Shown here: piece after piece, positions 17,217 to 63,607 of the stretch | Layout of the letters: every line of letters begins with the position of its first letter | Position numbering within the stretch: the stretch's first letter is position 1 | DNA from: Eutreptiella sp. 'Long Island Sound 2002' | Lineage: Eukaryota > Euglenozoa > Euglenophyceae > Eutreptiales > Eutreptiaceae | Assembly: GCA_964036045.1 (NCBI GenBank) | Contig: OZ038382.1 | Coordinates: 3,821,789-3,885,788 of the forward strand | Length of the DNA stretch: 64,000 bases | Direction of reading: 5' to 3' | Program-made: the position numbers and the translations under genes | The notes under the pieces: model-generated | Database searches by the model: none | What the model was told of the DNA's origin: nothing | Seen by the model: the letters and a program-made list of their open reading frames with translations, nothing else

Positions 17217-17294
17217 CAGTGCTGGCTGCACTGGCTGCGGCGCTACAGCCCGCGTAGACGAGGGGGCCCAGAGGGCACCACACCCGAATGGCCT
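17217..17294 (-). CDS. Exon, 78 nt, phase 1-1
   Basis: Acceptor 'cttcctcaacggag', donor 'cactg|gtggca'. Encodes an Ala/Ser-rich helix (LVYAGCSAAASAAS). The acceptor is weak and a longer version is possible. Confidence 0.4.
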
Positions 17295-17436
17295 CTCCGT
17301 TGAGGAAGGGGGGGGGGGGGGGCAGGGGTCGGCTGGTGGCTGTCTGGCCTCCAGGGGTCACCCACAACTGCACTGGAGTGCACGGGGCTGTGCTGGCCTA
17401 GGCGTCTGTGATGAAGTTGGAGGGGCACGTGCACAC

Positions 17437-17562
17437 CTGGAGGTTCCCTGGGCAGGCCGCTCAAGGGATACCCACAGCGGTCAAGCTGTGAGCCCTTCAC
17501 AGCCTCCACTTTTAGGCCCTGAGGGCGCCGACTCCGTGCACCCCTCCCGTCGGGGGCGCAGG
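17437..17562 (-). CDS. Exon, 126 nt, phase 1-1, basic linker
   Basis: A strong acceptor (long C tract then cag) and donor 'ctccag|gtgtgc' enclose 42 codons, rich in Arg/Lys/Gly, with RPQGLKVEAVKGSQ. It has no repeat motif. Confidence 0.5.
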
Positions 17563-17668
17563 CTGGGGGGGGGGGGGGGTAGGGTGGTGGATGGGTCTAC
17601 CTGTTCACTTGTGTGGGAGAGGAGGACCACCTGCTGGGTTACCATGCGGGTCCCAGATCCCAACATAC

Positions 17669-17885
17669 TTGTCGCTCGGAGTCCGCTCCCTGAGGGACCT
17701 CGATCACCATGTGACGGCCTGCAGTGAGGGTGCGAGGGCATGCGGGGGGGGGGGGGGGTGCTGGGCCTGCTTTCGGTCCGGCCCCATTTCTGTTGGGGGG
17801 GGTGGGGGCAGCAAAAGGTCTGCTCCCCTGTTTCCTGGTCCCCAAGAGGAACCAGCCCACGGCCTGCACCCTCGCTTTGTGGTGG
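17669..17885 (-). CDS. Exon, 217 nt, phase 0-1, linker
   Basis: Acceptor 'cccaaatttcag' in phase 0 follows the phase-0 end of the 18016-18167 exon. Donor 'gcgacaa|gtatgt' ends it in phase 1. A Pro-rich centre comes from a 15-nt homopolymer. An internal acceptor at 17,718 would give an alternative frame containing VIEVPQGADSERQ, so splicing here may differ. Confidence 0.4.
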
Positions 17886-18015
17886 CTGAAATTTGGGCCG
17901 ACAGAGGGGAGGGGGCGGGGCGGGGTGTCAAATGCAGGGGCGGGTTTCATGGGTGGTCTCTGCCTCCCTGGGAATGCGTGAACTGGGGAGTGGAGATGTT
18001 GGCAGTGGGGAATAC

Positions 18016-18167
18016 CTTTCTGTTCAAGATACTGTTTTGAAGCCCTGGATGCGCCACAGGGACTGGGCTGGTCGTTTTGACGCTCTTGAGGGTCAAGCCT
18101 CCATTGGACGAGGCGGAAGTGCGTCTCGAAGGTTTACTTGCTGGTACAGGGCCCTTCTTTGGGAACT
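18016..18167 (-). CDS. Exon, 152 nt, phase 1-0, Ser/Lys linker
   Basis: Strong acceptor 'gctttccccacag' and donor 'gaaag|gtattc'. About 50 codons, Ser/Pro/Lys-rich (PASKPSRRTSASSNGG), typical of a disordered linker. Confidence 0.55.
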
Positions 18168-19639
18168 CTGTGGGGAAAGCGGAGTGAAACTGGGCACAGG
18201 CAACGAAGGTCATGGCTTACCATAGCAAGGGTTGGCTTGGGTTGGGTTGGGGTTGGGGGGGCGGGGAGGGTTATGGGAGACTTTTGCATCTCCCAGGGGC
18301 GAGGCCCACTACTCCCAACAGGCATTTCTGCCATCTGCCCCACCAACTGCCATACTGCGAACCATGCATCCATCCGTCCATTCACCCAACCATCTTTCAT
18401 TGTACGTTGGACAGGACAAAAATGTTGCTTGTGCAAGCTTTCAAAACATGTTCTGAAACGAACTGAAAGCTGACAACCGATGCAGGGCGGCCCGGTCTGC
18501 AGGATCTATGCCATACCCCATTCCGTCCACCCACAAAAATCGCGATCCAACTGGGACCCAAACTGCGCGTACCATCCCGTCAAGGGACCGGGGTTCACCA
18601 TCAAGACCAAGGCATTGAGGTTGTGGAGGTCTTGAGCTGGCTGCCCGGGCATCCCACAACCCAACAGCCCAACCAGCCAGATATCCGGTGGACCACCCAA
18701 TCCATGTCCATCCATCCATCTATCCATCCAACCAGCTAGCCAGCCAGCCACAAATGTGCACAAATAAAATGGGTCTGACCAACCCCCCACCCCCTTACAG
18801 GTGCGGTGTAACCATGTGACCCGCTATGCGCGCGACCCTTCTCCCGCACCAATACCAGGCGGCATGGCGCTGGCCGGTCGGTCAAACAGGTGGATCTTCC
18901 TTCCCGGTGCCCGCGCCCACACACCCAGCGACCGTGTCTGCCCCTCGCCAGTGCTCCGGTGGGGTCTGGCGGCTGTTTGTAGTCCGCTCGGCCGTGAATC
19001 CGGACGGTCAGGCTATTCAGCCTCATGGTTGGGCAGAGAAGGACGCCCGGACTCAGGGGAGTGCTCCAGCATGAGGCCCTGTCCCAACCAAACCCAACCC
19101 CCCTTATCAGCGAAGATTTCTAACGTATTGGCGACTGTATCGCTGAGCACTGTTTTTTTTACCCTGCCCAGCGTGCCCACTGAGGCCTAGGGGTGGTTTC
19201 GTAGCCCCTAAAACACATTTTTTCTGGTTCTTATGCATTTAGGAACATTTGCAAACCCATTATATGTTGAAACATTTGGGGGAAAAATCGGACTTCGGTC
19301 TGTAAATGGTATTTTGTGTCAGATACATAGAGATCAGTCGTGGCTCACTGGTCTATGCCCTGCTCTCCAAAATGAAGGGTCCAGGTGCAAATCCCACCAT
19401 GCACACATTTATATGACACAAACCATCCCCCCCCCCCCCCCCGCAAACAATGCTAAACACAACACAAATACCCAATACTATCTGCAGGCAAGCTGCAGAA
19501 GTCATTGAGATTAATTCATTCAAATCTTGTGCATGGGCTCAGTTGTGTGGATTGGTTTCCCATGTCTGTAAAAGTGTGCAAGTGTCCAAATGACCACAAA
19601 TGTCCAACATCAATAGCAACATTTTGTTCAATATGCGGC
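18168..19639. other. Intron or intergenic, no confident gene
   Basis: Includes CCATCCATC-type simple sequence near 18,700. A degenerate tRNA-like stretch lies around 19,345-19,400 (A-box-like TGGCTCACTGGT, and GGTGCAAATCC in place of a B box). A C16 run is near 19,428. Confidence 0.4.
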
Positions 19640-20560
19640 ACTAACCCAGACAGCGGCATACAGTTTGCCGTCGCCCACAGATGCAGCGATGCAGCAGACT
19701 ATCCTGCTGCACAGCCAAGCAATGTGATCCTTTGGGAGGTCCCAGGGGTCTTTTAACTCAAGAATGGTCAGCCAAGAAGCTGTGGCTCCCAATTCTGCCG
19801 GGAGAGAAACAGGCTTGTCCTCACACAACGCCCGCCGTCTGCCCCGCTCCAACTCTGCGAGATCTTTGCTGTATGTCTTGTCCCTCTTTTCAGCAACATA
19901 CTCTTGTTTCCTATTTTTGCCATTAAGCTCCTTAGCTCCTTTTCCGTTTCTTTGTGCCGCTCCGTATTTGTTAACCCGGGATGTTAAGGAAATAGTTTTC
20001 AGCGCACTGGGATCTGTCCCTTACTTCACAGCTTGTGACCAACAAGGCTTCACCACTTTGCTCTGGGCCTCTACTGACACCTAATCCGCCGCTTGCGAAG
20101 GAATGGACGCCGCAACAGAAGACTCCGTAGCAGGCTGAAGCAGAGGCTTCTGACTATGGGCAACGATGCAGCTTGTTATTGATGCAGTCGCTCTGCAAGG
20201 CCCAACACATTCTTTGTGCATTCAGCTGCACCAAAAGCTGCTGCACAGATAGATGCCTCTGCTGCCAATTCTTCTGCTGCAGTGTAATCACTTACAACCG
20301 TGCCCTGTGCCGTGGATTTTTTGGGTACTTCCGGTGCTTCATGAGCTGCTGCACCCACACACACTGATCTGTTGCAGGCAAATCAGCCCAAGGGACCACG
20401 GGGACGCCACCTTGATTGCAGTAAGAGCACTCCATTGTGTCAATCTGGGCGGGGTAAGAAATACTAATAAAACATGGCTCCAGAACCACGCCAGGCCTGA
20501 ATTGAGCCTCTCCTCCCCTCCAGTTTCGGCAGTCACCACCCTGCTTCGGCTTCTGGGGGC
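19640..20560 (-). pseudogene. Decayed transposon-like reading frame
   Basis: Minus-strand reading from 20,560 downwards gives coding-like sequence (MECSYCNQGGVPVVPWADLP), an apparent frameshift at an A6 run near 20,320, an Ala/Glu-rich helix, a stop near 20,176, then after another shift a Lys/Glu-rich part (YVAEKRDKTYSKDLAELERG) with two more in-frame stops, ending VWVSAAY-stop near 19,641. The Cys pair hints at a zinc-binding element. The family is not recognised. Some pieces could instead be exons. Confidence 0.4.
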
Positions 20561-21070
20561 CATATTGGTGAGGGAAGAAGTGTACGTACAGAATCAGCGG
20601 GAAAAGACAAGAACTCCTGCGTGAGTTTAAGTGAGTTTGCACGAGTTGGCCTTTGTTTTGATTCTGTGATAACCAAACTGAATCTCTTCCATGCTCTCTT
20701 GGACTCCCTGGGTGGCAAAGGCGTCCCCCCCCCCCCCTTGCCAGCGGACACAAAACCTCGGTTACCTTGGCACCCGACCCTGCAGATAGGGTCGTTTAAC
20801 CAAGAACAAATGAGTGGAAAAGTTTTGAAGTGACGATATCTACGGCCCCCTGTGTTTTACACAGATCATGTGTTTCAAACAAAAAGTCGGGGAAGGAGTC
20901 GAGAGCAGGAGAGGGAATGAAGGGGGGCACACACTCTATGACAAGATTAGGTCCCCCACAGTGAAGGGGGGGGGGGGGGGCAAGGTGCATGACAACATCC
21001 CCCGGCCCCCCACCCCTACCCCACCAGAAATTTGACCCCATTCTTATGCCTACCCCTGGCAACCAGTTTC

Positions 21071-21225
21071 AGGCTTTTTGTTTCAGCTAACCCGGAAACC
21101 CTTCGTGTCGGCGAAATGTATCAGTGAAAATCAGAGACTGCCCAATTTAAGACTTTTTGCTTCAGCTAACCCGGAAACCCTTCGTATTGGCGAAATGTAT
21201 CGGCGAAAATCAGAAACTGAACGTA
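21071..21225. repeat. ~80-bp tandem duplication
   Basis: 'ttcagctaacccggaaacccttcgt' then 'ggcgaaatgtatc' occurs twice, starting near 21,082 and 21,161, with minor changes. Confidence 0.85.
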
Positions 21226-21539
21226 CCAGCAGACTGCATTGGCAAAGTCAGAAAAAGTCGGTCGCTGATACCAAAGGGGGGGGGTTGTAAGACAGACTTG
21301 GCCACAGGTCACTGCTCAGGGGTGGAAAGAGAGGCCCAGGAGGACCTGGTGTGGGGAGTCGTGCCCACAGATAGTGCACGGCCTTGAAGTTGCTTGGCCC
21401 CATGTACTGCATTGCCTGCCACAATGCCTGCAGCCCAGAACCGCGGAGAAGGGCCAAGGGATCATCGATGTCCTCTGCAGATCAGTGGCACAAATGCAGC
21501 GCAGATGGTGGGATGGGGAACACGATGGCGTGCCCCCTA

Positions 21540-22160
21540 CCAAACCACCAACACGATTACCCTCTACAACACCACCCATGCCACGGCATTCTTTTGGCCA
21601 CAACAACTATACCATCACTACCACGACCATCCCACTGCCCCATACAGCATCACCAAGGACACTACCATCCTTCCTCCCCCTAAACCAGCACCAATGCTAC
21701 TACCATCCCCCGTACCTCAATGCCACCACCCAGACCACTACCATCCCAGCGCTCCCTACAACACCAAGAATACCATTGCTATCCCACTGCCCTTTGAAAC
21801 ACCACCAAAACCATTACCAATACCATCCCTCTGCCCCCGACAAAACAAATATCACCACCGTTCCTGTGACCCCTATAAAACCATGCATACTGCTACCAGC
21901 CCCTTGCCCCCCACAACACTACACATACCACTATTATCCCAACTGCCCTCTATAACACCATCAAACCCACGACCATCCGTCTGCCCCCTACAGCACCACC
22001 CAGACCACTACCATTCCTCTGCCCCATATAACGCCACGAACACTGCGAACATCCTTCTGCCCCGTACAGCAGCACTCATCATACCATCTGCCTTCCCCAT
22101 CCAAGACCACCACAACCACAACTGCCATCACCATCCCTCGGCCTCTAAAACATCCCTGTA
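21540..22160. repeat. Degenerate CCA-rich minisatellite, ~30-bp period
   Basis: Diverged copies built from 'accactaccatcc' and 'ctgcccc(c/a)tacaacacca' fill the interval. Three plus-strand frames are all open for long stretches, as expected of biased repeats. Confidence 0.75.
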
Positions 22161-22291
22161 CCATCATCATCTCCAGTTGAAGTAGTAGGACAATAACACT
22201 CTACAACCAGTAAGCCTTCGTTGCTTGTTTTTTTGTTTTGGCCCCCACATCCCTTCACAACCCTCTGCTATCCTGTCCAACCCCACAAAAC

Positions 22292-22527
22292 CTTGTGAGT
22301 TTGCAGGATGAAGCATCCGTCCTGCACTAGTAGACCCGGTGGAGTGCAATGTTCTCAGCCCTGTCAGGTTCTGCAGCGAGGGCGGCGTACGCGGCTGCAT
22401 CTGCTGCAGGACCATTTTGTGCATGGCCGAGAACATGCCCCGCCCCGTCATCGTGGCCTGCGGTTGCGGGTCTGAGTTGCGCTTGGGGCTCAGCATGGAC
22501 AGGCCGAGGAAGGGGGAAGCAGGTCCG
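22292..22527 (-). CDS. Candidate exon, 236 nt, phase 2-1
   Basis: Acceptor 'ttttctgcacatctcag', donor 'tcacaag|gttttg'. 78 codons: a Pro/Ser linker (LGLSMLSPKRNSDPQPQ), then a Met/Gln-rich helical part ending near SLQNLTGL. An internal acceptor at about 22,465 would give a shorter form. Its phase-2 start does not match the 24285-24365 exon, so an exon would be missing between them. Confidence 0.4.
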
Positions 22528-23596
22528 CTGAGATGTGCAGAAAACCCCAGAGTCGTCAGCCCTGCACATCCGGTGCGAGCACTTGCGCCAGCGACCAGGG
22601 GCCGGCCAGCGAGCGACAAGGGCTGGGGATGGGGCATGGGCAGGAGTTGGGGACGGGATAGGGGCAGTGGCATGGGCAGTGGCAGGGGTAGTGGCAGGAG
22701 AGGACTGTGCTTGAATGGGGGCAGGGGGAGGATTTGGAGCTTGAGTATTGGGTTGGGTGGCCGATGTTAAGGCTGATGGCGTGGCCAGCCATGCATGTGG
22801 ATGCATGGCCAGCCTCGGGAGTGCAACCCCCCCCCACCCCATGCCCTCGATGCCCCCACACGCCCCCCATGGGCTGCTGCGTGGCAGGCTCGAAGGGTGC
22901 GGCCCTTCACTCTTGGCATGGGTTGGTGGGGCGCAGGTATCACCCGGTCTACGGCCGGAACAGGCCTTGCCCGAACACCCCTCGGGGGTCGCCGTTCCCC
23001 TCTGAGGCTCACTGCTTGGTCTGTTTGGCGTGCCCGTGCCACAGCGCTGGCCAAAAACGTTCTCTGAACTTCCCCTAAAACTGATACACTGCGCCAGCCA
23101 CTGTCCGCACCATGAGGCCTCCCGCCCTATCCGCCCGTCCTTCAATGCCCACGGGATGTGGGGTTCACGACCTGAAACCCAACGGCACAACACTACATGG
23201 CGCCAGACCCAGCCATGACCCAGGGGACAAGAAAGCCATGGCACACCAGCGCCTAACTGATGATGGTGCCACCAATAACCTTTAGGCTGTCCCAGATTTT
23301 CAGTGAGTGTTTATCACAGTACCCAAAGATAAGTGTAGCAGAGCACATGACGTTTGCACAAAGCCATTCATACCACAAATTGAAACCCTGAGACACACCG
23401 ATTGGTCGGGTGTGATGTAGGCACAGTGAACTGTGGGTGCATGGTTTCAAGTCCACCTCACCTCCAGCTATCGTGTGGCCATGGCTGAGTGAATTGCCCT
23501 CCCAGCGCTCAAGGGGACCACTGCTAGCCCACTAGCTTGGCTCGCCTGATGGAGGACATTGCCACCTTGTTTCAGGACTCCATGGGACACGTCGCA

Positions 23597-26879: not shown

Positions 26880-27107
26880 CAGCGTCTGTGGCAGCAGGAG
26901 TAAGCTCTTCCGACTCATTGCGACGCGGCAGGGCAACATCATCTCTGCTTTCCCTCAGCATTTGCAGACCAGGATAGGCCCAAATGCCTGAGGCGGTGGA
27001 GTTATCGGCCACGCTGTCGAGAGCCCGCAGATTGTAGCACGCTGGGAGTGGGTCCTGGCTGCCTTCGATGCCAGGGCACGGTCTGAGCGTGGCACTGGCG
27101 CCAAATA
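26880..27107 (-). CDS. Exon, 228 nt, phase 1-1, linker
   Basis: Acceptor 'ccatcatttctgcag', donor 'gacgctg|gtgtgc'. 76 codons with GIWAYPGLQMLRESRDDVAL and an acidic end NESEELTPAATDA. It is separated from the exon at 27200-27955 by a 92-nt intron, the shortest seen here. Confidence 0.65.
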
Positions 27108-27199: not shown

Positions 27200-27955
27200 C
27201 GGCGTCAGGCGAGTACATGGGGATGCACATCGACACAGTACCTGGGCTGCCCTCTGGAGTCTCCCACGCCACCGCCTCCTCCGCACCGCTGCTGGCGTCA
27301 TCATCTCCGCCGTCTCCACTGCCGCTGCCACCGCCGCTCCACGGCGGAGGACTGCCCCAGCCCCCAGACAGCGCCCTCACGCCCTTCAGGAGGGCCAAGC
27401 CTTCCGACAGGGGCCCTCCGGTGTTGTCCAGAGCCGCGCGCGCCCGCTCCACCCGCGCCCCGGTGCTGCACAGCTGCAGCAGCGCGGGCAGTGCACCTCC
27501 TTCGCGTTGCGTGGCCACTCCCTCCGCCAACTGCAGCCCAGCCAGCGCGCCGAGACCGGCGGGCGATGGTCGTTGCGGCGCGGCAGCGGCTGCTGGCGGT
27601 TCCGGTGGCTGTCGCCGCAATACAGACTTTACGGGCTGTTGCGGTGTGGGTCGCTTGGTCGTGGGCGGGGGCTGGTACAAGGGCTGCAGCAGCTGCAGGC
27701 CCGGCAGTTGGCAGGTGGTGCTGACGGTCACGGAGTCGTGGCGCAGGGCGGTGACGGCGCTCAGGAGGGGGTACAGCCCGGTGACGTGGGCCGCGCAGAA
27801 CGCGGCGTGCAGATGCGGCAGGACGGGCACCGGCTCGACGGACGGCGCGGGGGCCGGGGCCCCGGTAAGCGCACTCCGCAGCACCCCAATGCCCTCGTAG
27901 TCGGAGTGCGGTACGCCGGACGCAGAGGCGAAGAAGGCCTTCAAGACGTCAAGGC
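27200..27955 (-). CDS. Longest exon, 756 nt, phase 1-1
   Basis: Acceptor 'ttgcgctgttcctcag', donor 'gacgccg|gtgttc'; 252 open codons. In order: a repeat-like start (LDVLKAFFASASGVPHSD, then GIGVL), a second helical segment (LYPLLSAVTALRHDSV, LPGLQLLQPLY), a Pro/Gln/Ala-rich linker, a third helical segment (LPALLQLCSTGARVERAR, LSEGLALLKGV) and a Gly/Ser/Asp-rich acidic tail (GSGDGGDDDASSGAEE). The fusion of several repeats in one exon fits loss of introns. The frame stays open upstream through the minisatellite at 28,075, but the acceptor marks the likelier start. Confidence 0.65.
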
Positions 27956-28074: not shown

Positions 28075-28603
28075 GAAGGGGGAGGGTCTTTTGGGTAAGG
28101 GGGAGGGTCTTTTGGGTGAGGGGGAGGGTCTTTTGGGTAAGGGGGAGGGTCTTTTGGGTAAGGGGGAGGGTCTTTTGGGTAAGGGGGGGGGTCTTTTGGG
28201 TAAGGGGGAGGGTCTTTTGGGTAAGGGGGAGGGTCTTTTGGGTGAGGGGGAGGGTCTTTTGGGTAAGGGGGAGGGTCTTTTGGGTAAGGGGGAGGGTCTT
28301 TTGGGTAAGGGGGAGGGTCTTTTGGGTAAGGGGGAGTGTCTTTTGGGTAAGGGGGAGGGTCTTTTGGGTAAGGGGGAGGGTCTTTTGGGTGAGGGGGAGG
28401 GTCTTTTGGGTAAGGGGGAGGGTCTTTTGGGTAAGGGGGAGGGTCTTTTGGGTAAGGGGGAGGGTCTTTTGGGTGAGGGGGAGGGTCTTTTGGGTAAGGG
28501 GGAGGGTCTTTTGGGTAAGGGGGAGGGTCTTTTGGGTAAGGGGGAGGGTCTTTTGGGTAAGGGGGAGTGTCTTTTGGGTAAGGGGGAGGGTCTTTTGGGT
28601 AAG
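28075..28603. repeat. 21-bp minisatellite, about 25 copies
   Basis: Unit 'gggtaagggggagggtctttt', nearly uniform, with a few units carrying 'ggtgag' or 'gagtgtc'. All six frames are open; the minus strand would read a 7-residue YPKDPPP repeat. It is probably intronic because a good acceptor follows at 27,956. Confidence 0.95.
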
Positions 28604-31618: not shown

Positions 31619-31738
31619 CTGGTGACGCCTCGGGACTTGGAGGCCCCATTCCAAGCAGCCGGGCCAGGCTGAACCGCTCAGAGCCATCATCGCAGGCAAT
31701 GCGGTGCACCAGCGCGACACCGATCGGGCTGTCGTCGT
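31619..31738 (-). CDS. Exon, 120 nt, phase 1-1
   Basis: Acceptor 'acctgcggtcctcag', donor 'caccag|gtctgt'. Begins (D)DDSPIGVALVHRIACDDG then SLARLLG, closely parallel to the LRVVHRVAHDNG exons at 56-61 kb. Confidence 0.65.
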
Positions 31739-32459: not shown

Positions 32460-32561
32460 CTCTACGGGACACGTTGGCAAGCAGCACAAGCCCTGGGAGT
32501 CCTGCACAGTTTGCCGCCATGGCAGCACCTTGCAACACCTCCAAGCCCTCATCGTCCCAAC
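32460..32561 (-). CDS. Exon, 102 nt, phase 1-1, canonical repeat
   Basis: Acceptor 'tgtccctttccag', donor 'gtagag|gtgtgc'. Encodes GLEVLQGAAMAANC then GLPGLVLLANV, one of the clearest examples of the repeat. Confidence 0.7.
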
Positions 32562-34880: not shown

Positions 34881-34881
<1 letters not shown>

Positions 34882-36177: not shown

Positions 36178-36279
36178 CTGATTCTGAGGAATGCCAGAGC
36201 AGAACGAGGCCATCCAGTGTAGAACAGCTGCTGGCATCCGCCGCGCATTGCAATTGACGCAGGTACTGCAGGTCAGGCC
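36178..36279 (-). CDS. Exon, 102 nt, phase 1-1, canonical repeat
   Basis: Acceptor 'cgccccaacag', donor 'aatcag|gtgcgg'. Encodes DLQYLRQLQCAADASSC then LDGLVLLWHSS. Confidence 0.68.
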
Positions 36280-37279: not shown

Positions 37280-37381
37280 CTTCCACCAGCAGTTCTGCCA
37301 GCAGCATAAGCCCTGGAAGGTCACTGCATTGGGCTGTGATGGAGGTGCGCAGCAGTGTGCCGAGGTTTGACAAATCAACAC
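37280..37381 (-). CDS. Exon, 102 nt, phase 1-1, canonical repeat
   Basis: Acceptor 'ttgtatttgtag', donor 'ggaag|gtctgc'. Encodes VDLSNLGTLLRTSITAQC then LPGLMLLAELLVE. Same length as the exons at 32460 and 36178. Confidence 0.7.
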
Positions 37382-39649: not shown

Positions 39650-40018
39650 CTGCGGTTCGGTCATCAAGTGCAACGTCTCTGGACCTGAGGTGGATCACCT
39701 GCCCGGGCGGTCTATGTGCAGACCGGCCTTCATGTGTGTCCTCTCGTGGGACGTTGGGCGCAAGTGGCATCCATTTACGCCGTGTTGTGGGCATTCGGGA
39801 CGCGGGGATGGCCTCCAATAGTTTGTTTGGTTGGGTATATGTTTGTGGGCTGATGTCCCACCGGCTGTTGCATTTTGTCTGTCGACTGTGGGCTAAAACC
39901 AGCCCGACTAATCTGCTCCGCGGCAGCAGGAACACGGTACAGGGTACCATGGTAGGCGCATGAAGCGACACTGCACCTGCAGCCTTGGATGGCGTCTTTG
40001 AGGCGGTTTGGACGGTAC

Positions 40019-40168
40019 GTAGCCTGCCTTGAAGCGCATCGAGTCCCCAAAAAGGGCCGCTGATGCTGCGTGCCGCATTATCCAACAATTGTAGTGCAAT
40101 CAAAGGGCCTGGAAGGAGGTGTGGATGTAGGGCGCAACCAACGACTGCAAGGCCCAGCCCCGCGTCTA
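40019..40168 (-). CDS. Exon, 150 nt, phase 1-1
   Basis: Acceptor 'cgctccagcgcacag', donor 'ggctac|gtaccg' (alternative 42 nt further, same phase). Encodes LGLAVVGCALHPHLLPG then IALQLLDNAARS. Confidence 0.55.
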
Positions 40169-40883
40169 CTGTGCGCTGGAGCGAGAGGGTGTGGCAAATA
40201 GCAATCGCAATACGTTGCGGGGGAAAGCAAACAAAAACATTTTGCACTGACCACTTAGATGGGGCTCCGAAATACCACGCATACTGTAAATTGGTTGCCA
40301 TAAGTACGGACCACAGCCCAGTAGGGAGCACGACTTTGAGAGGGTTCTTGGGTTTCACGCGTGCAGAGGGGGCAGCGCAATTCCTGAGGGGGCACCACAG
40401 CAGCCGCACCGCCCCACATCGGGCCTGAGATTTTTATTGCCAGGATCATCCGAAATAGGGATTTGCAAGTTGAGCAGGGGGCAGCTGTGGTTTGTAGAAG
40501 TCAGCCCAAAATGGGCGTTGGAAATCCGCTGACCCATACTTACGGCAACGAATTTACAGTACATACAGACTGATACTGAAGAGGGATTTGAAAGAGGGCA
40601 ACACATGAACAACAGATAGCGGTGGGGGGGGGGGGGGCGGGGGGGCGGGGCTGGGAACGGAGGGGCGACCAGTAGCGGTGGGGGTTCGAAGGAGGGGCGG
40701 GGGCAACGCACATGCACTCCATAGCAGTGGTGGGGCGGGGCAACCGCCAGGCGCCAAGGAGCGGTGGTGTTGGGCCTCGTACCCCATGCAGCGTGTGTCT
40801 CGGTGTGTGGGGGTTCTGCGCTGCGCCGCAGCAGTGCAGCGCAGCGCACCAAGGCCCAGGCATACCCGCTGCACAGGGCAAAC

Positions 40884-40982
40884 CCGCGCCCTCAGCCGCC
40901 TTGCGCAGCAGCCCAAGCGCCGGGTCAGTGCCACATCCGGACTCTTGAGCGGCGGTATATAAGATTTGCAGGAAATTGATGC
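40884..40982 (-). CDS. Exon, 99 nt, phase 1-1, canonical repeat
   Basis: Strong acceptor 'cccgttttgttgcag', donor 'gcgcgg|gtttgc'. Encodes INFLQILYTAAQESGC then DPALGLLRKAAEG; a diverged relative of the array exons. Confidence 0.7.
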
Positions 40983-41753: not shown

Positions 41754-41867
41754 CTCGTGCAGCAGCAGCACCACCCTCCGCAGCCCCACGCAGCAGCACG
41801 AGCCCTGGGGCAGTGTCACAGCCCGCCTCTTTGGCGGCGCTGTACAACGCTTGCAGGGAGTCGGCAT
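41754..41867 (-). CDS. 114-nt module exon, dispersed copy
   Basis: Acceptor 'ctccctccgtttgcgccag', donor 'cacgag|gtgtgc'. Encodes ADSLQALYSAAKEAGC then APGLVLLRGAAEGG. Confidence 0.65.
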
Positions 41868-43264: not shown

Positions 43265-43378
43265 CTCGTGCAGCAGCACCACCACCCTCCGCAGCCCCGC
43301 GCAGCAGCAAGAGCCCTGGGGCAGTGTCACAGCCCGCCTTTTTGGCGGCGCTGTACAACGCTTGCAGGGAGTCGACAT
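43265..43378 (-). CDS. 114-nt module exon, dispersed copy
   Basis: Same splice sites and phase as the array exons. Encodes VDSLQALYSAAKKAGC then GLLLLRGAAEGG. The frame is intact. Confidence 0.62.
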
Positions 43379-45952: not shown

Positions 45953-46066
45953 CTCGTGCAGCAGCACCACCACCCTCTGCAGCCCCGCGCAGCAGCACGA
46001 GCCCTGGGGCAGTGTCACAGCCCGCCTCTTTGGCGGCGCTGTACAACACTTGCAGGAAGTCGACAT
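45953..46066 (-). CDS. 114-nt module exon, dispersed copy
   Basis: Acceptor 'ccgtttgctccag', donor 'cacgag|gtgtgc'. Encodes VDFLQVLYSAAKEAGC then APGLVLLRGAAEGG. Confidence 0.65.
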
Positions 46067-46673: not shown

Positions 46674-46811
46674 CTTCAGCTTCCCCTTCAGGAGCTGCAG
46701 CAGAGGGGAAGGCTCCGCCATCCATGGCTTGACGCAGCAGCACGAGCCCTGGGGCAGTGTCAAAGCCCACGTCTTGAGCAGCGCTGTACAAGACTTGCAG
46801 GAATTCGGCGT
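46674..46811 (-). CDS. Exon, 138 nt, phase 1-1, diverged array relative
   Basis: Acceptor 'cctttgtttgctccag', donor 'gctgaag|gtagtc'. Encodes AEFLQVLYSAAQDVGF then APGLVLLRQAMDGG with an extra acidic tail (APEGEAE). Confidence 0.68.
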
Positions 46812-46879: not shown

Positions 46880-49500
46880 TTGAAGGGGGGGGGGGTCAAG
46901 CTTGGTGCGGAGAGAGGACTGGGCCTGAAAGTGGGCTCTTTCGGGACCAACAATCGGTCAAGCCTTGTGTCAAAAACGTTCACAGACCTCTTGGGATGCC
47001 CAAAGAAGTTGATCCCATTTTGAGCCTGTGGAGACCCAAATTTGGCCCCTTCAAATTCCCAAAAAGTCTTTAAAATGGGCCATTTTGGGACAAAAATTGG
47101 GGGGGGCAACAACAAGCAGCAACACTACTTCTTTCTGTTGTGGACCTTAGTCCCTCCCAGCGCTTCAGGCTCTACTCTACGCAAGCCATCTTTTTGCATT
47201 GACATTTGGGCTTTCCAGATCCAGAGTTTGAGCCTCAGACTCACTGTTGGTGGCCTGGGGTATGGGTGCCGGATGGGGAGATGCGCTTTCAAATCTGCAC
47301 AGTTTTGGGCCAAGACAAGCCATTTTTCGCCCAGAATGCCCCCCAAACCCCGTAAACTCATTTTTGAGTCCCCTTGGAGCCTTGTTGGACCTGGTTTGGC
47401 CCCGGCGAGCTGGGGCTCTGTTTGTTGCCCTGGCCCACACACTTTTGGAGGGCCAACACAGGTCACCTTGGGCTCAAAACAGGCTAAAAAAAAGTCGTTT
47501 GGGCATCCCAGATGGTCTGGTTTGGCCTGTTAAGGCAAGAATTCTCGCCTCCTTGGAGCTCGCTCTAACCCATTTTGGCCCACTCATTGACACATCCCAA
47601 CAACAGCCACATATTACAGTGCCCTCCAATGATCTATGAATTTTGGTAAACATGAAAAATGCAGCAAAAAAAAATACATTGTGCTTCGTGCTGTGCACAT
47701 TGCCAGTGATGTGAAAAATGCATAAAGGGGGCCTGAAACATGATTCACGGGGGAGATCATTGTGAGTAGTGGAAAAAACTTGGGATTGGAATTTTTCGAT
47801 TTCGAGCTATAGAGGGTGACTACTTCAGCAATTTGTGCACTAGTCCTTTTGGGGAACCCCCTACCCTCCGCGAAAAAATACACATATGTAGCACTGAGTG
47901 CCTCAATATGGTAAAACACACACACACACACACACACACAAAGAGGGCTGAAAACATGATTTGCATGTGATGTTTGATAATTGCGAGTGGTCAATTGTGA
48001 AAGATCAGATTTAGAATGGTCGAATCTTGAGTTGGAAAAAAATAAAATGCTGTGGTCGAGAAAAATGATATGGTATGGATTGGAATGGTGAATGTGCAAA
48101 CAGAAAAAAATGCATAGAAATGGACGAAACCATGTTGTGGACAAATCAATTCATTGTTGAGTGATCATAAAAGCCAGAAAGAAAAAATTGCGTCTGCAAT
48201 GATTGATGTTGAGGGAGTAGGTTGCGAGTGGACTAAAAAAACACGCAATACGAATGACAACATGGTCAACCCAGGTCATGATCACATACCAATGGAAGTC
48301 AGATTGTGCGAATGTGCTTGAACAAGAGCGTTGAATGACAAGACAAAACAATGGGTAGGCATGGTAAAACATACAAGGAGCTGGACACACAGTTTGACCA
48401 TGCATGGGTTACCATTGTTGTGCATGGTTCAAAAACACGGAGCAATTACAAGCAACATCACACGCATCCTTGTTCTACTCCAGTGCCTCGCATTTTACCA
48501 TGAAATACAAGCGCTATTCCACATGGTTTTGTATTGCACAGGTTACCATCTTCTAACACTTGAGCAAGGGTGCACACAGGATACAAGCAGGCTTTTACAC
48601 ACACTTGTATGTTACCAAATACAGGCAACCTTCGCCCTTTTACACCGGAGTATTGTTAAACTGTCACAACTTCCTCAATCCCGACGCTCAAGTGGGGTTA
48701 TCACTGGGTCACCAAAGCCGCCAAAAACGCTGACAACAAAAATGCCTGAAGATCGCATAAACTGCATGAGCGCCCATCCCAGGCCCAAAAACATTTTTTT
48801 GCTCAAAATGAAAGAAACCAAAAGGATTGCGATTTTTGACCCAGGGGGTCTACGGGGGTTCCAATAACAAAAGCCTTTGGAGATACTATTCTTGGACAAA
48901 ATAATGATGTTACAAGGGTTAAACCAACACTGCAACCCCTTGGGATAGGGTGCGCAATTGGCCCAAAAGGGAGAGGTGGGCATGTGGCGTTTTCCTGTGT
49001 ATATATGTGGGCCTGCGTGGCTTTGATCTAACACCACTGCGAGGTGAGTCATGCTTTCCAAGTTAAAAAAGGGGAAATCATTTTTTCCCGCCCTGCTTCC
49101 TTCCTAGTCATATTTGGGAAATTGGCTGTAACGCTAGTTTTGGGCCCGAAACTTGTAAATCCCCTAGTTTCAACCCTAACCTGATAAAAAAATCCCGCAA
49201 CCCAACAAAACAACAGTGAACAACGTCGCTGGTAATGTGATTTCGCCTAACCTGACCTGACCTGCACTAAGAGCATTGAATGCGTCTTTGGTCGGCTGCA
49301 TGAGCGGAAGAACAATATGCCCAGTCGGTTGAGACGGAGGAGGGGGGTGGGTGGGGCTAGCCCACCCTCCCTGGCTCCTCCAATTGTGTTTAGATGTTAG
49401 GCGAAATTCTGGCTATAAGCCTCAAAGGCGTCACTGCACAGCTGCATCAGGCAACATGAGGCTTCCAGCACGCACTCTGCCCGCAAAAATACTCGTGTGC
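46880..49500. other. Large intron of dispersed repeats, no exon seen
   Basis: 47,700-48,000 resembles the 192-bp repeat of the first 10 kb ('gtgaaaaatgcataaaggggg', 'tttgataatt'). 48,890-49,060 matches 11,130-11,290. A (CA)n run lies at 47,918-47,940. The two ends of the tandem-unit flank thus recur here in the same order, suggesting one older insertion of a related element. Confidence 0.55.
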
Positions 49501-49548
49501 CACGCGCCGACAGCGGAGAGGTGGTCAACAGCACAGCGCATCGCACAC

Positions 49549-49662
49549 CTCGTGCAGCAGCACCACCACCCTCCGCAGCCCCGCGCAGCAGCACGAGCCC
49601 TGGGGCAGTGTCACAGCCCGCCTTTTTGGCAGCGCTGTACAACACTTGCAGGAAGTCGACAT
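49549..49662 (-). CDS. Array exon A5 (114 nt, phase 1-1)
   Basis: Acceptor 'ccgtttgctccag', donor 'cacgag|gtgtgc'. Encodes VDFLQVLYSAAKKAGC then APGLVLLRGAAEGG and a short Ala/Arg tail. Confidence 0.68.
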
Positions 49663-49915
49663 CTGGAGCAAACGGAGGGAGGCAATGTGCCTTGGAAATG
49701 GGAATCGCAAGGGTAGACTCGGACCAGGAGCAGCAGGAATGAGGTGAGGATGCGTGTATAGAAAGAGAGAGTGCAGTCGGAACTGTACTTCAGTGTACTT
49801 CTGCACTTTAGTGTACTTTCGGGCACGAGGAAGGGGGGGGACTTAAGTGGTAGCAGGCAATCGTCTCTTCATCCGCCGTTGGCAACAAGGGGAGTTCATT
49901 AGTGTCCTCAAACAC

Positions 49916-49987
49916 CTCCGTCGGAGAGCAACTGCCAGAGTACCACACAACCTCCGGCAAACCGTGGGCCATCGGGTACCAAGGCAT
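49916..49987 (-). CDS. Array exon B4 (72 nt, phase 1-1)
   Basis: Acceptor 'cctcggtccgcag', donor 'gacggag|gtgttt'. Encodes ALVPDGPRFAGGCVVLWQLL and SDG. Confidence 0.6.
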
Positions 49988-50409
49988 CTGCGGACCGAGG
50001 GCCACGGGATGCACCTGCCCCTCGACATCAGATGTGGCTAATAGCCTCATGGCATCACTGCATAGCTACACTAGGCAACATGAGGCTTCCAGCACACACT
50101 CTCCCCGCACGTCATGTGTAGACTTTAAATACCTCAAAAACACAAATACTTGCTTAACTTTAAACGATTCAGCGATACGCCTAATTCCGGCGCAAACCAA
50201 CGTGAAACCCACTGTCCGACTGAACACCGCTCTTGTCTACGCCACCCCACCATCATCAGTTGTTGCACTTGATCGCACTCTGCCCCCCCCCCCCCCCTCC
50301 CCCCAGAATCCAGGCAAAATATACAGCCTCGATCACAACCCTGATTTGCTTTAGCGCGTGCTATGCGCCGACATCGGAGAGGCGATCAACAGCACAGCGC
50401 ACTGCACAC

Positions 50410-50523
50410 CTCGTGCAGCGGCACCACCACCCTCCGCAGCCCCGCGCAGCAGCACGAGCCCTGGGGCAGTGTCACAGCCCGCCTCTTTGGCGGCGCTGTA
50501 CAACACTTGCAGGAAGTCGACAT
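50410..50523 (-). CDS. Array exon A4 (114 nt, phase 1-1)
   Basis: The same exon as 49549-49662. Splice sites are intact; VDFLQVLYSAAKEAGC. Confidence 0.68.
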
Positions 50524-50775
50524 CTGGAGCAAACGGAGGGAGGCAATGTGCATTGGATTTGGGAATCGCAAGGGTAGACTCGGACCAGGAGCAGCAGGAA
50601 TGAGGTGAAGATGCATGTATAGAAAGAGAGAGTGCAGTCGGAACTGAACTTCAGTGTACTTCTGCACTTTAGTGTACTTTCGGGCACGAGGAACGGGGGG
50701 ACTTAAGTGGTAGCAGGCAATCGTCTCTTCATCCGCCGTTGGCAACAAGGGGAGTTCATTAGTGTCCTCAAACAC

Positions 50776-50847
50776 CTCCGTCGGAGAACAACTGCCAGAG
50801 TACCACACAACCTCCGGCAAACCGTGGGCCATCGGGTACCAAGGCAT
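50776..50847 (-). CDS. Array exon B3 (72 nt, phase 1-1)
   Basis: As 49916-49987, with one Leu-to-Phe change near the end (WQLFSDG). Confidence 0.6.
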
Positions 50848-51266
50848 CTGCGGACCGAGGGCCACGGGATGCACCTGCCCCTCGACATCAGATGTGGCTA
50901 ATAGCCTCATGGCATCACTGCATAGCTACACTAGGCAACATGAGGCTTCCAGCACACACTCTCCCCGCACGTCATGTGTAGACTTTAAATACCTCAAAAA
51001 CACAAATACTTGCTTAACTTTAAACGATTCAGCGATACGCCTAATTCCGGCGCAAACCAACGTGAAACCCACTGCCCAACTGAACACCGCTCTTGTCTAC
51101 GCCACCCCACCATCATCAGTTGTTGCACTTGATCGCACTCTGCCCCCCCCCCCCTCCCCCCAGAATCCAGGCAAAATATACAGCCTCGATCACAACCCTG
51201 ATTTGCTTTAGCGCGTGCTATGCGCCGACATCGGAGAGGCGATCAACAGCACAGCGCACTGCACAC

Positions 51267-51380
51267 CTCGTGCAGCAGCACCACCACCCTCCGCAGCCCC
51301 GCGCAGCAGCACGAGCCCTGGGGCAGTGTCACAGCCCGCCTCTTTGGCGGCGCTGTACAACACTTGCAGGAAGTCGACAT
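51267..51380 (-). CDS. Array exon A3 (114 nt, phase 1-1)
   Basis: Identical reading to A4; frame and splice sites intact. Confidence 0.68.
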
Positions 51381-51632
51381 CTGGAGCAAACGGAGGGAGG
51401 CAATGTGCATTGGATTTGGGAATCGCAAGGGTAGACTCGGACCAGGAGCAGCAGGAATGAGGTGAGGATGCATGTATAGAAAGAGAGAGTGCAGTCGGAA
51501 CTGTACTTCAGTGTACTTCTGCACTTTAGTGTACTTTCGGGCACGAGGAACGGGGGGACTTAAGTGGTAGCAGGCAATCGTCTCTTCATCCGCCGTTGGC
51601 AACAAGGGGAGTTCATTAGTGTCCTCAAACAC

Positions 51633-51704
51633 CTCCGTCGGAGAACAACTGCCAGAGTACCACACAACCTCCGGCAAACCGTGGGCCATCGGGTACCAAG
51701 GCAT
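51633..51704 (-). CDS. Array exon B2 (72 nt, phase 1-1)
   Basis: As 50776-50847; intact. Confidence 0.6.
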
Positions 51705-52125
51705 CTGCGGACCGAGGGCCACGGGATGCACCTGCCCCTCGACATCAGATGTGGCTAATAGCCTCATGGCATCACTGCATAGCTACACTAGGCAACATGA
51801 GGCTTCCAGCACACACTCTCCCCGCACGTCATGTGTAGACTTTAAATACCTCAAAAACACAAATACTTGCTTAACTTTAAACGATTCAGCGATGCGCCTA
51901 ATTCCGGCGCAAACCAACGTGAAACCCACTGTCCGACTGAACACCGCTCTTGTCTACGCCACCCCACCATCATCAGTTGTTGCACTTGATCGCACTCTGC
52001 CCCCCACCTCCCCTCCCCCCAGAATCCAGGCAAAATATACAGCCTCGATCACAACCCTGATTAGCTTTAGCGCGTGCTATGCGCCGACATCGGAGAGGCG
52101 ATCAACAGCACAGCGCATCGCACAC

Positions 52126-52239
52126 CTCGTGCAGCAGCAGCACCACCCTCCGCAGCCCCGCGCTGCAGCACGAGCCCTGGGGCAGTGTCACAGCCCGCCT
52201 TTTTGGCGGCGCTGTACAACACTTGCAGGGAGTCGGCAT
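52126..52239 (-). CDS. Array exon A2 (114 nt, phase 1-1)
   Basis: Intact; begins (x)ADSLQVLYSAAKKAGC with a Gly-to-Ala-rich tail variant. Confidence 0.66.
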
Positions 52240-52492
52240 CTGGAGCAAACGGAGGGAGGCAATGTGCCTTGGAAATGGGAATCGCAAGGGTAGACTTGGA
52301 CCAGGAGCAGCAGGAATGAGGTGAGGATGCGTGTATAGAAAGAGAGAGTGCAGTCGGAACTGTACTTCAGTGTACTTCTGCACTTTAGTGTACTTTCGGG
52401 CACAAGGAACGGGGGGAACTTAAGTGGTAGCAGGCAATCGTCTCTTCATCCGCCGTTGGCAACAAGGGGAGTTCATTAGTGTCCTCAAACAC

Positions 52493-52564
52493 CTCCGTCG
52501 GAGAACAACTGCCAGAGTACCACACAACCTCCGGCAAACCGTGGGCCATCGGGTACCAAGGCAT
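52493..52564 (-). CDS. Array exon B1 (72 nt, phase 1-1)
   Basis: As 50776-50847; intact. Confidence 0.6.
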
Positions 52565-52990
52565 CTGCGGACCGAGGGCCACGGGATGCACCTGCCCCTC
52601 GACATCAGATGTGGCTAATAGCCTCATGGCATCACTGCATAGCTACACCAGGCAACATGAGGCTTCCAGCACACACTCTCCCCGCACGTCATGTGTAGAC
52701 TTTAAATACCTCAAAAACACAAATACTTGCTTAACTTTAAACGATTCAGCAATGCGCCTAATTCCGGCGCAAACCAACGTGAAACCCACTGCCCAACTGA
52801 ACACCGCTCTTGTCTACGCCACCCCACCATCATCAGTTGTTGCACTTGATCGCACTCTGCCCCCCCCCCCCTCCCCTCTCCCCCCAGAATCCAGGCAAAA
52901 CATACAGCCTCAATCACAACCCTGATTAGCTTTAGCGCGTGCTATGCGCCGACATCGGAGAGGCGATCAACAGCACAGCGCATCGCACAC

Positions 52991-53104
52991 CTCGTGCAGC
53001 AGCAGCACCACCCTCCGCAGCCCCACGCAGCAGCACGAGCCCTGGGGCAGTGTCACAGCCCGCCTCTTTGGCGGCGCTGTACAACACTTGCAGGGAGTCG
53101 ACAT
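52991..53104 (-). CDS. Array exon A1 (114 nt, phase 1-1), first in transcription order
   Basis: Acceptor 'ccgtttgcgccag', donor 'cacgag|gtgtgc'; VDSLQVLYSAAKEAGC then APGLVLLRGAAEGG. Confidence 0.68.
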
Positions 53105-53239
53105 CTGGCGCAAACGGAGGGAGGCAATGTGCCTTGGAAATGGCACTGGAGAGCCCTGTCCCAAACCGCTGCTGGCAACAAGGGGAGGTCACTGTGCCCT
53201 CATACACCTCCTTTGGAGAGCTACTTCCTCAGTACTAAC

Positions 53240-55000: not shown

Positions 55001-55120
55001 CTGCCGCAGCAGAGGGCAAGGCCCCGCCCTCCGCAGCCCCGCGCAGCAGCACGAGCCCGAGGGCAGTGGCACAGCCCGACTCTTGAGCGGCAGCGAAAAA
55101 GACTTGCAGGAAGTCGACGT
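55001..55120 (-). CDS. Exon, 120 nt, phase 1-1, canonical repeat
   Basis: Acceptor 'catttgtctcag', donor 'gcggcag|gtgtgc'. Encodes VDFLQVFFAAAQESGC then ALGLVLLRGAAEGG. A diverged parent-like relative of the array exons. Confidence 0.72.
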
Positions 55121-56042: not shown

Positions 56043-56165
56043 GTTCCATGGGCTGTTCACCAGCTCCCGCACCGGACTCCAGCACTTGGGCAAGGGCGGC
56101 CGTCGGCAGACCGTTGTCATGGGCCACGCGGTGCACGACCCTCAGGCTACCAAACAGGCGGTCTT
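56043..56165 (-). CDS. Exon, 123 nt, phase 1-1, triplicated family
   Basis: Acceptor 'gtgcgctcctcag', donor 'ggaac|gtatgc'. Encodes LFGSLRVVHRVAHDNGLP then ALAQVLESG and a Gly/Glu tail. A nearer donor (tccg|gtgcgg) is also in phase. Confidence 0.65.
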
Positions 56166-57395: not shown

Positions 57396-57506
57396 GTTCC
57401 GTGGGCTGTTCACTGGACTCCAGCACTTGGGCAAGGGCGGCCGTCGACAGACCGTTGTCATGGGCCACGCGGTGCACGACCCTCAGGCTACGGAACGGGC
57501 GGTCTT
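57396..57506 (-). CDS. Exon, 111 nt, phase 1-1, triplicated family
   Basis: Same as 56043-56165 with a 12-nt in-frame deletion that removes the nearer donor but keeps gtatgc. Encodes LRVVHRVAHDNGLS. Confidence 0.62.
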
Positions 57507-59313: not shown

Positions 59314-59457
59314 CGTGCGGGGCCCCATGTGAAGTGGCCGTGGACACGTCGATCGCCTGCACTACCTTCGACAGGTTCTGCAGCGGCATGTCGAAGTCCG
59401 CAGCAGTGCGATACGCGAGCCTCAAGCTGCCATACAAATGGGCCCCCGACAAGAGAT
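59314..59457 (-). CDS. Exon, 144 nt, phase 1-1
   Basis: Acceptor 'gcgtttgtgttgcag', donor 'cgcacg|gtacgc'. Encodes LYGSLRLAYRTAADFDMP then LQNLSKVVQAIDV, a relative of the triplicated exon. Confidence 0.68.
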
Positions 59458-61286: not shown

Positions 61287-61409
61287 GTTCCGTGGGCTGT
61301 TCACCAGCTCCTGCACCGGACTCCAGCACTTGGGCAAGGGCAGCCGTCGGCAGACCGTTGTCATGGGCCATGCGGTGCACAACCCTCAGGCTACGGAACG
61401 GGCGGTCTT
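61287..61409 (-). CDS. Exon, 123 nt, phase 1-1, triplicated family
   Basis: Same splice sites as 56043-56165. Encodes FRSLRVVHRMAHDNGLP then ALAQVLESG. Flanks are duplicated too (61,170-61,470 resembles 55,975-56,230 and 57,290-57,590). Confidence 0.65.
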
Positions 61410-61570
61410 CTGAGGAGCGCACATGGGGCCAGTGCGGCGGGGCTTGGGACACATCCCTCGGTACCCGAACCCCCACCTTCTCACGATGCCCATCTGAAGG
61501 ACTGAGTCGTCGCACGGCTCACCCACCCGCACACCCATGCAACATGGTCACAGTCACACGAAACACATAC

Positions 61571-61684: not shown

Positions 61685-61739
61685 CTACAGCGGTGCATGG
61701 GTGATGGCTCGGGACGCGCTGGAATTCCTGTGATCCACC

Positions 61740-62760
61740 TGTCAGCTGTTGGTAAGGCCTGATGAATCACACTATGAAAATGTGCCCTACTGTTCCAAAG
61801 CATCAGTCTTCACCTCGACCCTCTACTGTCACTCAATATTGCCAATCTATGTTGTCACTGAACGGTACGTCTTTGTGGGGTTACTCTATGCTGTCGCTCT
61901 ATGGTGTCACTCTGTACTGTAACTCTATACTGATATTCCACACTGTTGGGCACTCTATCCTGCCACTCTCTGTTTTTATCCCATAACCCACGCATTCAGC
62001 CTAGGTACCATCATTATTGAGGGTTTGTCATATCTCCGTGGTGGTCAAGCTCAACAACTGGGCTTTCTGTGATTCCATGATTTCCGTGATTTTTGGTTAT
62101 TTCTGTGGCACCCAACCATCCTTCCATGTTGCACAATAACCACATCAAAACCTGCAGCAAGCAATGCAAAGCCAAAAAAAAAACGCATTCTAGCCACAAA
62201 ACATCCTTGTTGGCAACCCTACAGGGAGGAAGGGGGGGGAAGTTTTCCAGGGGATAATTTCAGACGAGGGAATCCTGAAGCTTGCTGTTATTTCCTGGTG
62301 GACTCTGGATGGTTCTTGTTATTTCCTGGTAGGCTCCGGATGGTTCCTATTATTTCCTGGTGGAATCTGGATGGTTCCCGTTATTTTGCTGGTGGGCTTT
62401 GGATGGTTGCTGTTATTTCCTGGTGGGCTCCGGATCCACCTGCATTTGAATTCGTGGTGAAATTGTTGGTCACACACCGCGAAAATTTCGCAGGGGGGGG
62501 GATTTCGCCACTTTTCTTAACGCCGCATTTTCCCCCGCAAAGGTCTCCCCTCCCAAAATCTGCTCCCTCTGTAAGAGAAACTCCCCACAACATCTCCATC
62601 GGGAAAAAATTGTTACAAGACATTGGGGCATTTTTTGTCTGATTTTTGGCCGATTTTTCAATCAAACTGCCAAGGGTAAACGACCTCTCAGTGGCAGCAA
62701 CTGTCACAGGCCACCAAAAGTACGGCATGACAGCTGTAGTTCATATGCCTTCATGGTCCT
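61740..62760. other. No confident gene
   Basis: 61,830-61,980 is a degenerate 'tgtcactctatac' repeat (also at 63,330-63,385). 62,160-62,190 has an A run. 62,283-62,440 is a minisatellite. A minus frame near 62,640-62,710 (AATERSFTLGSLIEKS) follows an acceptor but has no good donor. Confidence 0.4.
62283..62440. repeat. ~33-bp minisatellite, about 5 copies
   Basis: Unit 'gttatttcctggtgg(a/g)ctc(t/c)ggatggttc', period 31-34 bp. Confidence 0.85.
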
Positions 62761-62764
62761 TTTA

Positions 62765-63175
62765 AAAGGCTGCCACATCATCCAAAGATTGAACATTGTG
62801 CCTCTCTATTTTACAATACCGAGACCATTCTTCATTGAGCGTATTTGTGTCCTCCTCTTTTTGATGATGTACAAATCGCATTGCTGGTTTCAAGAATACG
62901 AGGAGCAAACAATCTTGGTGCATCTCCCAAAGAGCATTTGCATCTTTGAAGTTCCGTGGATCCCAATGCCGTAGCTTGGCTTCTCAATGAAGAAGGGCGG
63001 TGTTGTCCTTACACCAATCAATCAGTTGTTGGTTCATATCCTTCATGGCTATGCAGAACTTTGAGGTGAGCTGCACACCCGCCCACCACTGGATAGCCAA
63101 TAATGCATTGACAACACGTGGATGGATTGATTCCAGTGTTACAGCCAAGCCGTTGAGCTTTGTACCCAACGACAC
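62765..63175 (-). pseudogene. Transposon-like frame broken by one TGA
   Basis: A single minus-strand frame reads from 63,175 (LNGLAVTLESIHPRVVNALL; MKDMNQQLIDWCKDNTALLH) to a TGA near 62,985, then on in the same frame (AKLRHWDPRNFKDANALWEM; EEDTNTLNEEWSRYCKIERH) to TAA near 62,765. The composition is clearly protein-like. The family is not recognised. Confidence 0.5.
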
Positions 63176-63179
63176 ACCA

Positions 63180-63330
63180 GTACGTACACTCTGAACTTGG
63201 TGCGTGGGCTCTTAGTACACCCCCATTATACGCACCTTGCGCGCAGCGCGCCTGCGACCCCCCCCCCCAGGGAACTGGTCATACGCCGGAATCCCCCACC
63301 AGACTTCCCGCGGCCGCCCACCACTGCCTA
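63180..63330. repeat. ~150-bp dispersed duplicate of 61,085-61,220
   Basis: 'gcgtgggctctt(g/a)gtacacccccattatacgcaccttgcgcgca' and the following 'cgccgga(g/a)tcccc(c/a)gccagacttcc' are shared. Confidence 0.8.
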
Positions 63331-63508
63331 TCTATACTGCCAATCTATCCTTTCACTTTGTACTGTCACTCTGTACTCCACTGAGGCACACATCAGATGT
63401 CCCACTGAATCCCACTGAATCGAGACCACTGCATGGGTCCCCTTCAAGAACACGCGCTGTGAACTTGAGCTGCTGAGGCAGCCACCATTTGCCCCGCGAG
63501 TGCCACAC

Positions 63509-63607
63509 CTTGGCCGACTGCTTCTTTGATCATCTCAAGCCCAGGCCCTGGGCCTTCCTCGAGATATGCGGCTGCGGATTGTAGTTTGTCGAGGTACCCG
63601 AAATCCT
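63509..63607 (-). CDS. Exon, 99 nt, phase 1-1, most upstream repeat exon seen
   Basis: Strong acceptor 'ctcttgtattgtcag', donor 'ggccaag|gtgtgg'. Encodes DFGYLDKLQSAAAYLEEG then PGLEMIKEAVGQ, a full repeat. Confidence 0.7.

Follow-up and report, generated by a model that had tools for sequence, protein, structure and literature searches.

Genes in which each protein repeat occupies an exon of its own are known from brown algae. In the accessible text of PMC11378527, the ROCO genes (LRR-ROC-COR) carry each LRR motif on its own 72-bp phase-2 exon, and in both ROCO and NB-TPR genes exons have been duplicated, possibly changing the number of repeats while keeping the frame (citing Zambounis et al. 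2012). The LRR or TPR repeats of these genes stand beside a GTPase or NB-ARC domain. Tandem two-helix repeats also form the PPR and OPR proteins, with motifs of 35 and 38 residues, respectively (PMC13126933, accessible portion). Here we describe an array of repeat-encoding exons on the minus strand of a 64,000-nucleotide stretch of contig OZ038382.1 (the window), which is part of a contig of 159.6 Mb (C5) in a genome of 2.28 Gb. The array is like the brown-algal genes in combining one repeat per symmetric exon with exon duplication. Unlike them, it has phase-1 exons of mostly 99-138 nt, a different helical hairpin and no known partner domain. It probably belongs to a nuclear gene, in what is likely to be a euglenozoan, that encodes an alpha-solenoid of 33-38-residue hairpins, mostly one per phase-1 exon, and would act as a binding scaffold.

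A simple repeat pattern, which was the starting point for profile building, matched seven times on the minus strand and not at all on the plus strand. The core profile was built from 6 repeats, five of them from window exons and one from another contig (C16). It was run against 1795 minus-strand and 1620 plus-strand phase-1 AG..GT segments taken from 244 kb of sequence, and against those of the reversed DNA (1398 and 1601, 2999 in all). Thirteen distinct exons were recovered at 25.8-76.1 bits, all on the minus strand, while the top plus-strand or control row reached 5.4 bits. The training set contained five of the 13. Seven others are close copies of those five, and one, at 32561, is divergent and untrained. 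A loose regular expression with splice borders, composed only after copies had been seen, gave 17 minus-strand rows and no plus-strand row in the window, two of the rows being a single segment at 19424. A wider profile, trained on many of its own matches, found 25 places of at least 15 bits, all on the minus strand between 26.9 and 63.6 kb; elsewhere nothing reached 9 bits. When its 16 training exons were left out one at a time, six scored above all background and eight, all of them look-alike places, were not recovered. After this test, a profile of all repeat types was dropped as proof because it was circular.

We count 13 exons as firm and 2 as probable, and about 10 more as possible. Under splice filters of moderate strictness, 57 minus-strand phase-1 segments were found between 17.0 and 64.3 kb against 35 plus-strand ones (50 and 41 in phase 0, 31 and 43 in phase 2), a phase-1 minus-strand surplus of about 20. 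An earlier note on this DNA had counted more than 40 repeat segments, an overstated number that could not be reproduced. Its description of minus-strand exons with AG/GT borders, phase 1-1, lengths divisible by three and a shared motif was borne out by the 13 exons. The interval that it gave, 17217..63607, includes 17.2-26.9 kb, where no profile match was found and the sole regular-expression segment, 19424, has a poor pyrimidine tract. The 120 kb to the left contained no clear repeat, and nor did the 60 kb to the right, where one weak place was seen at 64157 (10.0 bits, E-value 0.16).

All array features lie on the minus strand, and exons are referred to by their higher window coordinate. The first firm exon (55001..55120, 120 nt, phase 1-1) was found by both the core profile and the regular expression, and scored 30.2 bits in leave-one-out. 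It is followed by five core exons of 114 nt, at 52991..53104, 52126..52239, 51267..51380, 50410..50523 and 49549..49662. The middle one (leave-one-out 38.1 bits) was used for structure prediction, and the other four, found by the core profile and DNA self-comparison, lie inside 860-bp tandem units. An exon that measures 138 nt if its donor is GTAGTC (46674..46811; leave-one-out 22.6 bits) precedes three more of 114 nt, recovered by the core profile and DNA self-comparison, at 45953..46066, 43265..43378 and 41754..41867. The remaining firm exons, also found by the core profile, are one of 117 nt (40866..40982; leave-one-out 14.7 bits) and two divergent ones of 102 nt. The first of these, 36178..36279, scored 16.1 bits in leave-one-out. 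The second, 32460..32561, had 25.8 bits untrained and ranked ninth in the wider-profile leave-one-out, without splice borders. Next below the firm exons, at 6.0 bits each against a best control of 5.4, came the two probable exons. One (37280..37381, 102 nt, possibly extending beyond its donor) ranked fourth in leave-one-out, and the other (26925..27041, 117 nt, with a weak donor, GTCGCA) reached 8.7 bits in leave-one-out against a background of 7.5.

Core exons are preceded by a pyrimidine tract and CAG and followed by a donor such as GTGTGC. Each begins with two bases of a split codon and ends with one, giving phase 1-1 and a length that is a multiple of three. In the frame set by the search, all 13 core exons appear to hold one repeat each in this constant symmetric phase. 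The donor has G at position +5 in 10 of 14 exons, against a background of 0.295, with the qualification that donors were partly selected by a filter favouring this base and that the set of 14 includes two duplicates. Pyrimidines are abundant in the acceptor tracts (C 111 and T 89 of 280 bases), and this fits the C-rich acceptor tract reported for Euglena gracilis in the accessible part of PMC11170887. All 22 exons examined have an open frame and an intact acceptor, and in 21 of them one or both of the other frames contain a stop. These intact frames and acceptors are not independent evidence, since the exons were chosen as open segments with borders and eight of them are copies.

The repeat is about 33-38 residues long per exon, with a consensus of roughly D-x-x-x-L-x-x-L-x-x-A-A-x-x-x-G-C-x-x-x-x-G-L-x-L-L. 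In an alignment of 20 exon translations, firm and possible, positions L4, A11 and L22 are nearly or fully invariant. The structure predicted for the 51380 exon from this alignment is a two-helix hairpin with helices at residues 3-14 and 20-29 (mean predicted local distance difference test score, pLDDT, of 85), in agreement with the 30-40-residue helical repeats that the earlier note had proposed. The repeat matches nothing in the libraries searched. The 20 single exons matched no Pfam family at E-values up to 1, helical-repeat families such as TPR, PPR, ankyrin, HEAT and ARM included, and spliced exons gave four Pfam matches to unrelated families, all under the cut-off (E-values 0.0096-5.4). 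Foldseek returned no match in the PDB for the 37-residue hairpin model, which is very small, and the best E-values in sequence searches of the PDB, 0.2 and 0.71, were taken as chance. The family, which the earlier note did not recognise, appears to be new. One repeat per symmetric exon, in contrast, is a known architecture, described in brown algae (PMC11378527), and the words 'previously unseen-looking' in the earlier note overstate how new the architecture is. No gene of this kind was named for Euglena among the open-access literature matches listed.

Two known repeats come close in form. The ankyrin repeat has 33 residues and a helix pair, of which the first helix carries A-A and the second L-L. 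The array repeat resembles it in length, in the helix pair and in the placement of A-A and L-L, but it lacks the T-P-L-H motif, and no Pfam ankyrin row was returned at E-values up to 10 (the search filters drop most rows above 0.1). The array could also encode a lineage-specific organelle RNA-binding solenoid of the PPR/OPR type, as both are tandem two-helix repeats and 33-38 residues is similar to the motif lengths quoted above; OPR was compared by repeat length alone. However, no Pfam family was matched by any of the 20 exons, and we consider this explanation quite improbable. PPR and OPR proteins are not known to be characterised by having each repeat on a separate exon.

A single-repeat query of 39 residues had at least 12 genomic matches, of which 11 fall within the array locus and one is on C16 (E-value 0.1). 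The C16 place is an open reading frame (ORF) of 541 residues, identical over 98% to the ENA protein P0001, which carries no name. The window profile scored 22.7 bits on P0001, against a maximum of 7.1 for 1000 shuffles. P0001 carries the same repeat, also as an uninterrupted series in which it recurs about every 35 residues (LPGLTLLAHLQEASCPSLDTLVHCAIRHDQGAVTP). Unlike those of the array, the repeats are packed within one long exon (eight to ten counted by eye, four profile rows of at least 12 bits). P0001 had no Pfam family and no match in the PDB sequence searches. Its multi-repeat structure model was too poor (pLDDT 36) to serve as a search query and was discarded. A second ENA protein, P0002, is 37% identical to P0001 over 43%. 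Upstream of the C16 ORF, three same-strand places match amino-terminal parts of P0002 in the corresponding order (E-values 0.001, 7e-5 and 3e-7, obtained with composition adjustment off in a search where some low-complexity chance matches had similar E-values). The C16 gene is therefore probably split as well, with its repeats mostly in the last exon. As a query, residues 160-731 of P0002 found P0002 alone and not P0001.

Recent growth of the array is apparent in a tandem expansion at 49494..53143, recognised by DNA self-comparison and spacing, in which five copies of a unit of one exon and its intron are spaced 857-865 bp apart at about 97% identity. Three further copies lie at 46066, 43378 and 41867. 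Among the eight copies, 11 of the 114 exon sites vary, and seven of these change the residue. Downstream of the exon the copies diverge by 24.7%, and some are no longer alignable there. We infer that the array lengthens by duplicating an exon together with its intron (about 860 bp). The phase 1-1 architecture and the tandem expansion agree with the proposal in the earlier note that such symmetric exons can be copied without breaking the frame.

The possible exons include a second repeat type (SLRVVHR.AHDNG), found at 61317..61409 (93 nt with the first donor; not recovered in leave-one-out), 57396..57506 and 56073..56165. These three share a DNA duplicate, and the latter two were identified by DNA self-comparison and splice borders. 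Two further possible exons seem akin to this type, 59314..59457 (144 nt, 7.9 bits, controls at most 6.0) and 31619..31738 (120 nt, 10.4 bits). Both failed leave-one-out, and their tie to the second type is weak. The top untrained match of the second-type profile was a minus-strand segment outside the array, 78679 (11.1 bits), which outscored both, and 48603 (8.2 bits), also on the minus strand, outscored 59457; neither segment is a repeat exon. Other possible repeat exons are 63509..63607 (99 nt), which has the motif and splice borders but was not recovered in leave-one-out, and 39977..40108 (132 nt), noticed by eye and by the wider profile trained on it, but likewise not recovered in leave-one-out. 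A possible long multi-repeat exon, resembling the final exon of the gene on C16, lies at 27306..27955, with an acceptor CAG at 27955. P0001 matched 27932-27306 in a tblastn search with composition adjustment off (E-value 0.003, 26% identity), a weak match given that antisense chance matches reached 1e-7, and two repeats of this stretch (27955 and 27704) were not recovered in leave-one-out. A look-alike noticed by eye at 30095 also failed.

The two repeat types may instead belong to several neighbouring genes, one mainly at 61409-56073 and the core at 55120-26925. The types are spatially separate apart from 63607 and 31738, and some gaps between exons measure 2-4.7 kb. However, all exons are on one strand and in phase 1-1, and we regard a division into several genes as possible but somewhat unlikely.

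A number of observations weigh against a single functional solenoid gene. The analysis of the DNA established neither a start exon nor a stop for the array, nor any partner domain. Exon-to-exon spacing (745-4697 bases) exceeds the mean of 512 bases given for GT-AG introns of E. gracilis in the accessible text of PMC11170887. The multi-repeat model of P0001 is too poor to show stacking of the hairpins. A typed 681-residue splice had no match among 7994 scored candidates (of 5.8 billion proteins), and P0002, although it resembles P0001, was absent among the top rows listed for the window profile. In addition, the eight young copies have a mean nonsynonymous divergence (dN) of 0.038, equal to their synonymous divergence (dS) of 0.038 (28 pairs), and diverge by 3.7% in the exon and 3.5% in the upstream intron. 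The dN/dS of one of the six older core pairs is 0.92, that of second-type pairs is 0.53, 0.35 and 1.53, and the widest exon pairs are saturated. The other five older core pairs gave values of 0.33, 0.42, 0.48, 0.48 and 0.51, so that the older core exons look selected as protein. A dN/dS near 1 across related strains had been named beforehand as a refutation. Our comparison was of copies within one genome, and there such a value was found in the young copies but not in most of the older core. With only 11 of 114 exon sites variable, the test among young copies is low in power, and these copies may be too recent or too free to display constraint.

The same figures bear on two other explanations. 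The array could be partly decayed, an old repeat-exon gene with young 860-bp copies that amount to neutral DNA of a satellite-like kind, making it a pseudogene or a mixture of live and dead exons. Equal dN and dS and the equal divergence of exon and upstream intron would be expected in this case, and the region is rich in recent tandem duplication. However, five of the six older core pairs have dN/dS below 0.52, the test on the young copies is weak, and the frames and acceptors are intact throughout, though for the reasons given above this last point counts little. We consider decay unlikely. Alternatively, the exons could be diversifying rapidly under selection as a recognition surface, duplicated and altered in the manner of LRR exons in brown-algal ROCO genes or TPR exons in NB-TPR genes, whose architecture is the same (PMC11378527, accessible text). 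The seven residue-changing sites among the 11 variable ones fit such a process, but dN/dS in the young copies is about 1 and not above it. No GTPase or NB-ARC domain is known at the array either, the scan having covered the repeat exons and not the flanks. This explanation is very improbable.

The surroundings of the array are repetitive. A 30.7-kb tandem segmental duplication with 99.93% identity occupies offsets -38392..-7691 and -7695..23009 relative to the window, its right copy ending within 17217..63607. On the minus strand at 4055-6016, an ORF of 653 residues lies in a 6.28-kb tandem unit (about 99% identity); it has no Pfam match and is perhaps a transposon gene. Just upstream of the array, at offsets of about 65738-78485, there are several copies of a unit of about 1464 bp at 98-99% identity. 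Two arrays of a 21-bp unit with 96-97% matches lie at 28076-28603 (25 copies) and 28994-29179 (9 copies). In the left flank, between about -119000 and -54000, inspection by eye showed long ORFs that contain aspartic-protease-like and integrase-like parts and are apparently long terminal repeat retroelements. ARAGORN placed a tRNA-Ala (anticodon ggc) on the plus strand at 22749-22842; it is perhaps false, and the window had no Rfam match at gathering score. A dinoflagellate source was considered on the look of retroelement ORFs and set aside; a spliced-leader pattern had no matches in the window and its 14-base core none in 31 loci, which says little. A 17-base Euglena-like pattern also had no match in the window.

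The contigs examined ranged from C1 (201 Mb) down to C20 (45 Mb), with C30 at 12 kb. The telomere unit CCCTAA was present at three of the five large contigs examined (C2, C4 and C20, not C1 or C3). A ribosomal unit lies at C44:1-6000, with a small-subunit (SSU) rRNA of 2226 nt, 5.8S, and large-subunit matches at both ends of this 6-kb stretch, one of them cut off by the end. The 3′ end of the SSU rRNA is AACAAGGTTGCTGTAGGTGAACCTGCAGCAGGATCATTG / AAGGTTGCTGTAGGTGAACCTGCAGCAGGATCATTG, which we take to be a form typical of Euglenozoa. On the telomere unit and this SSU end, a green or brown alga was rejected as the source.

Our preferred explanation remains the single solenoid gene. Each symmetric phase-1 exon would encode helix 1 and helix 2 of one repeat, and the exons would be joined into one transcript whose hairpins stack into an alpha-solenoid. 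Unequal exchange within introns would copy an exon with its intron, adding or removing a whole repeat with the frame kept. The protein would then most likely serve as a lengthening scaffold whose groove binds a partner, either protein or RNA, scaffolding or recognition being its inferred function. In a broader and distinctly unlikely scenario, the repeat family is private to euglenozoans. Its founding gene would have been split into one-repeat symmetric exons, and repeat number and surface would be changing within the species through duplication of exons with their introns. A single-celled protist would in this way have a rapidly changing protein for recognition or scaffolding, comparable to the exon-shuffled receptors known from brown algae. 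The array itself would extend the genes with one repeat per symmetric exon to a further, unrelated lineage of protists and to a new family of repeats, and the young 860-bp copies make change in repeat number directly testable across strains.

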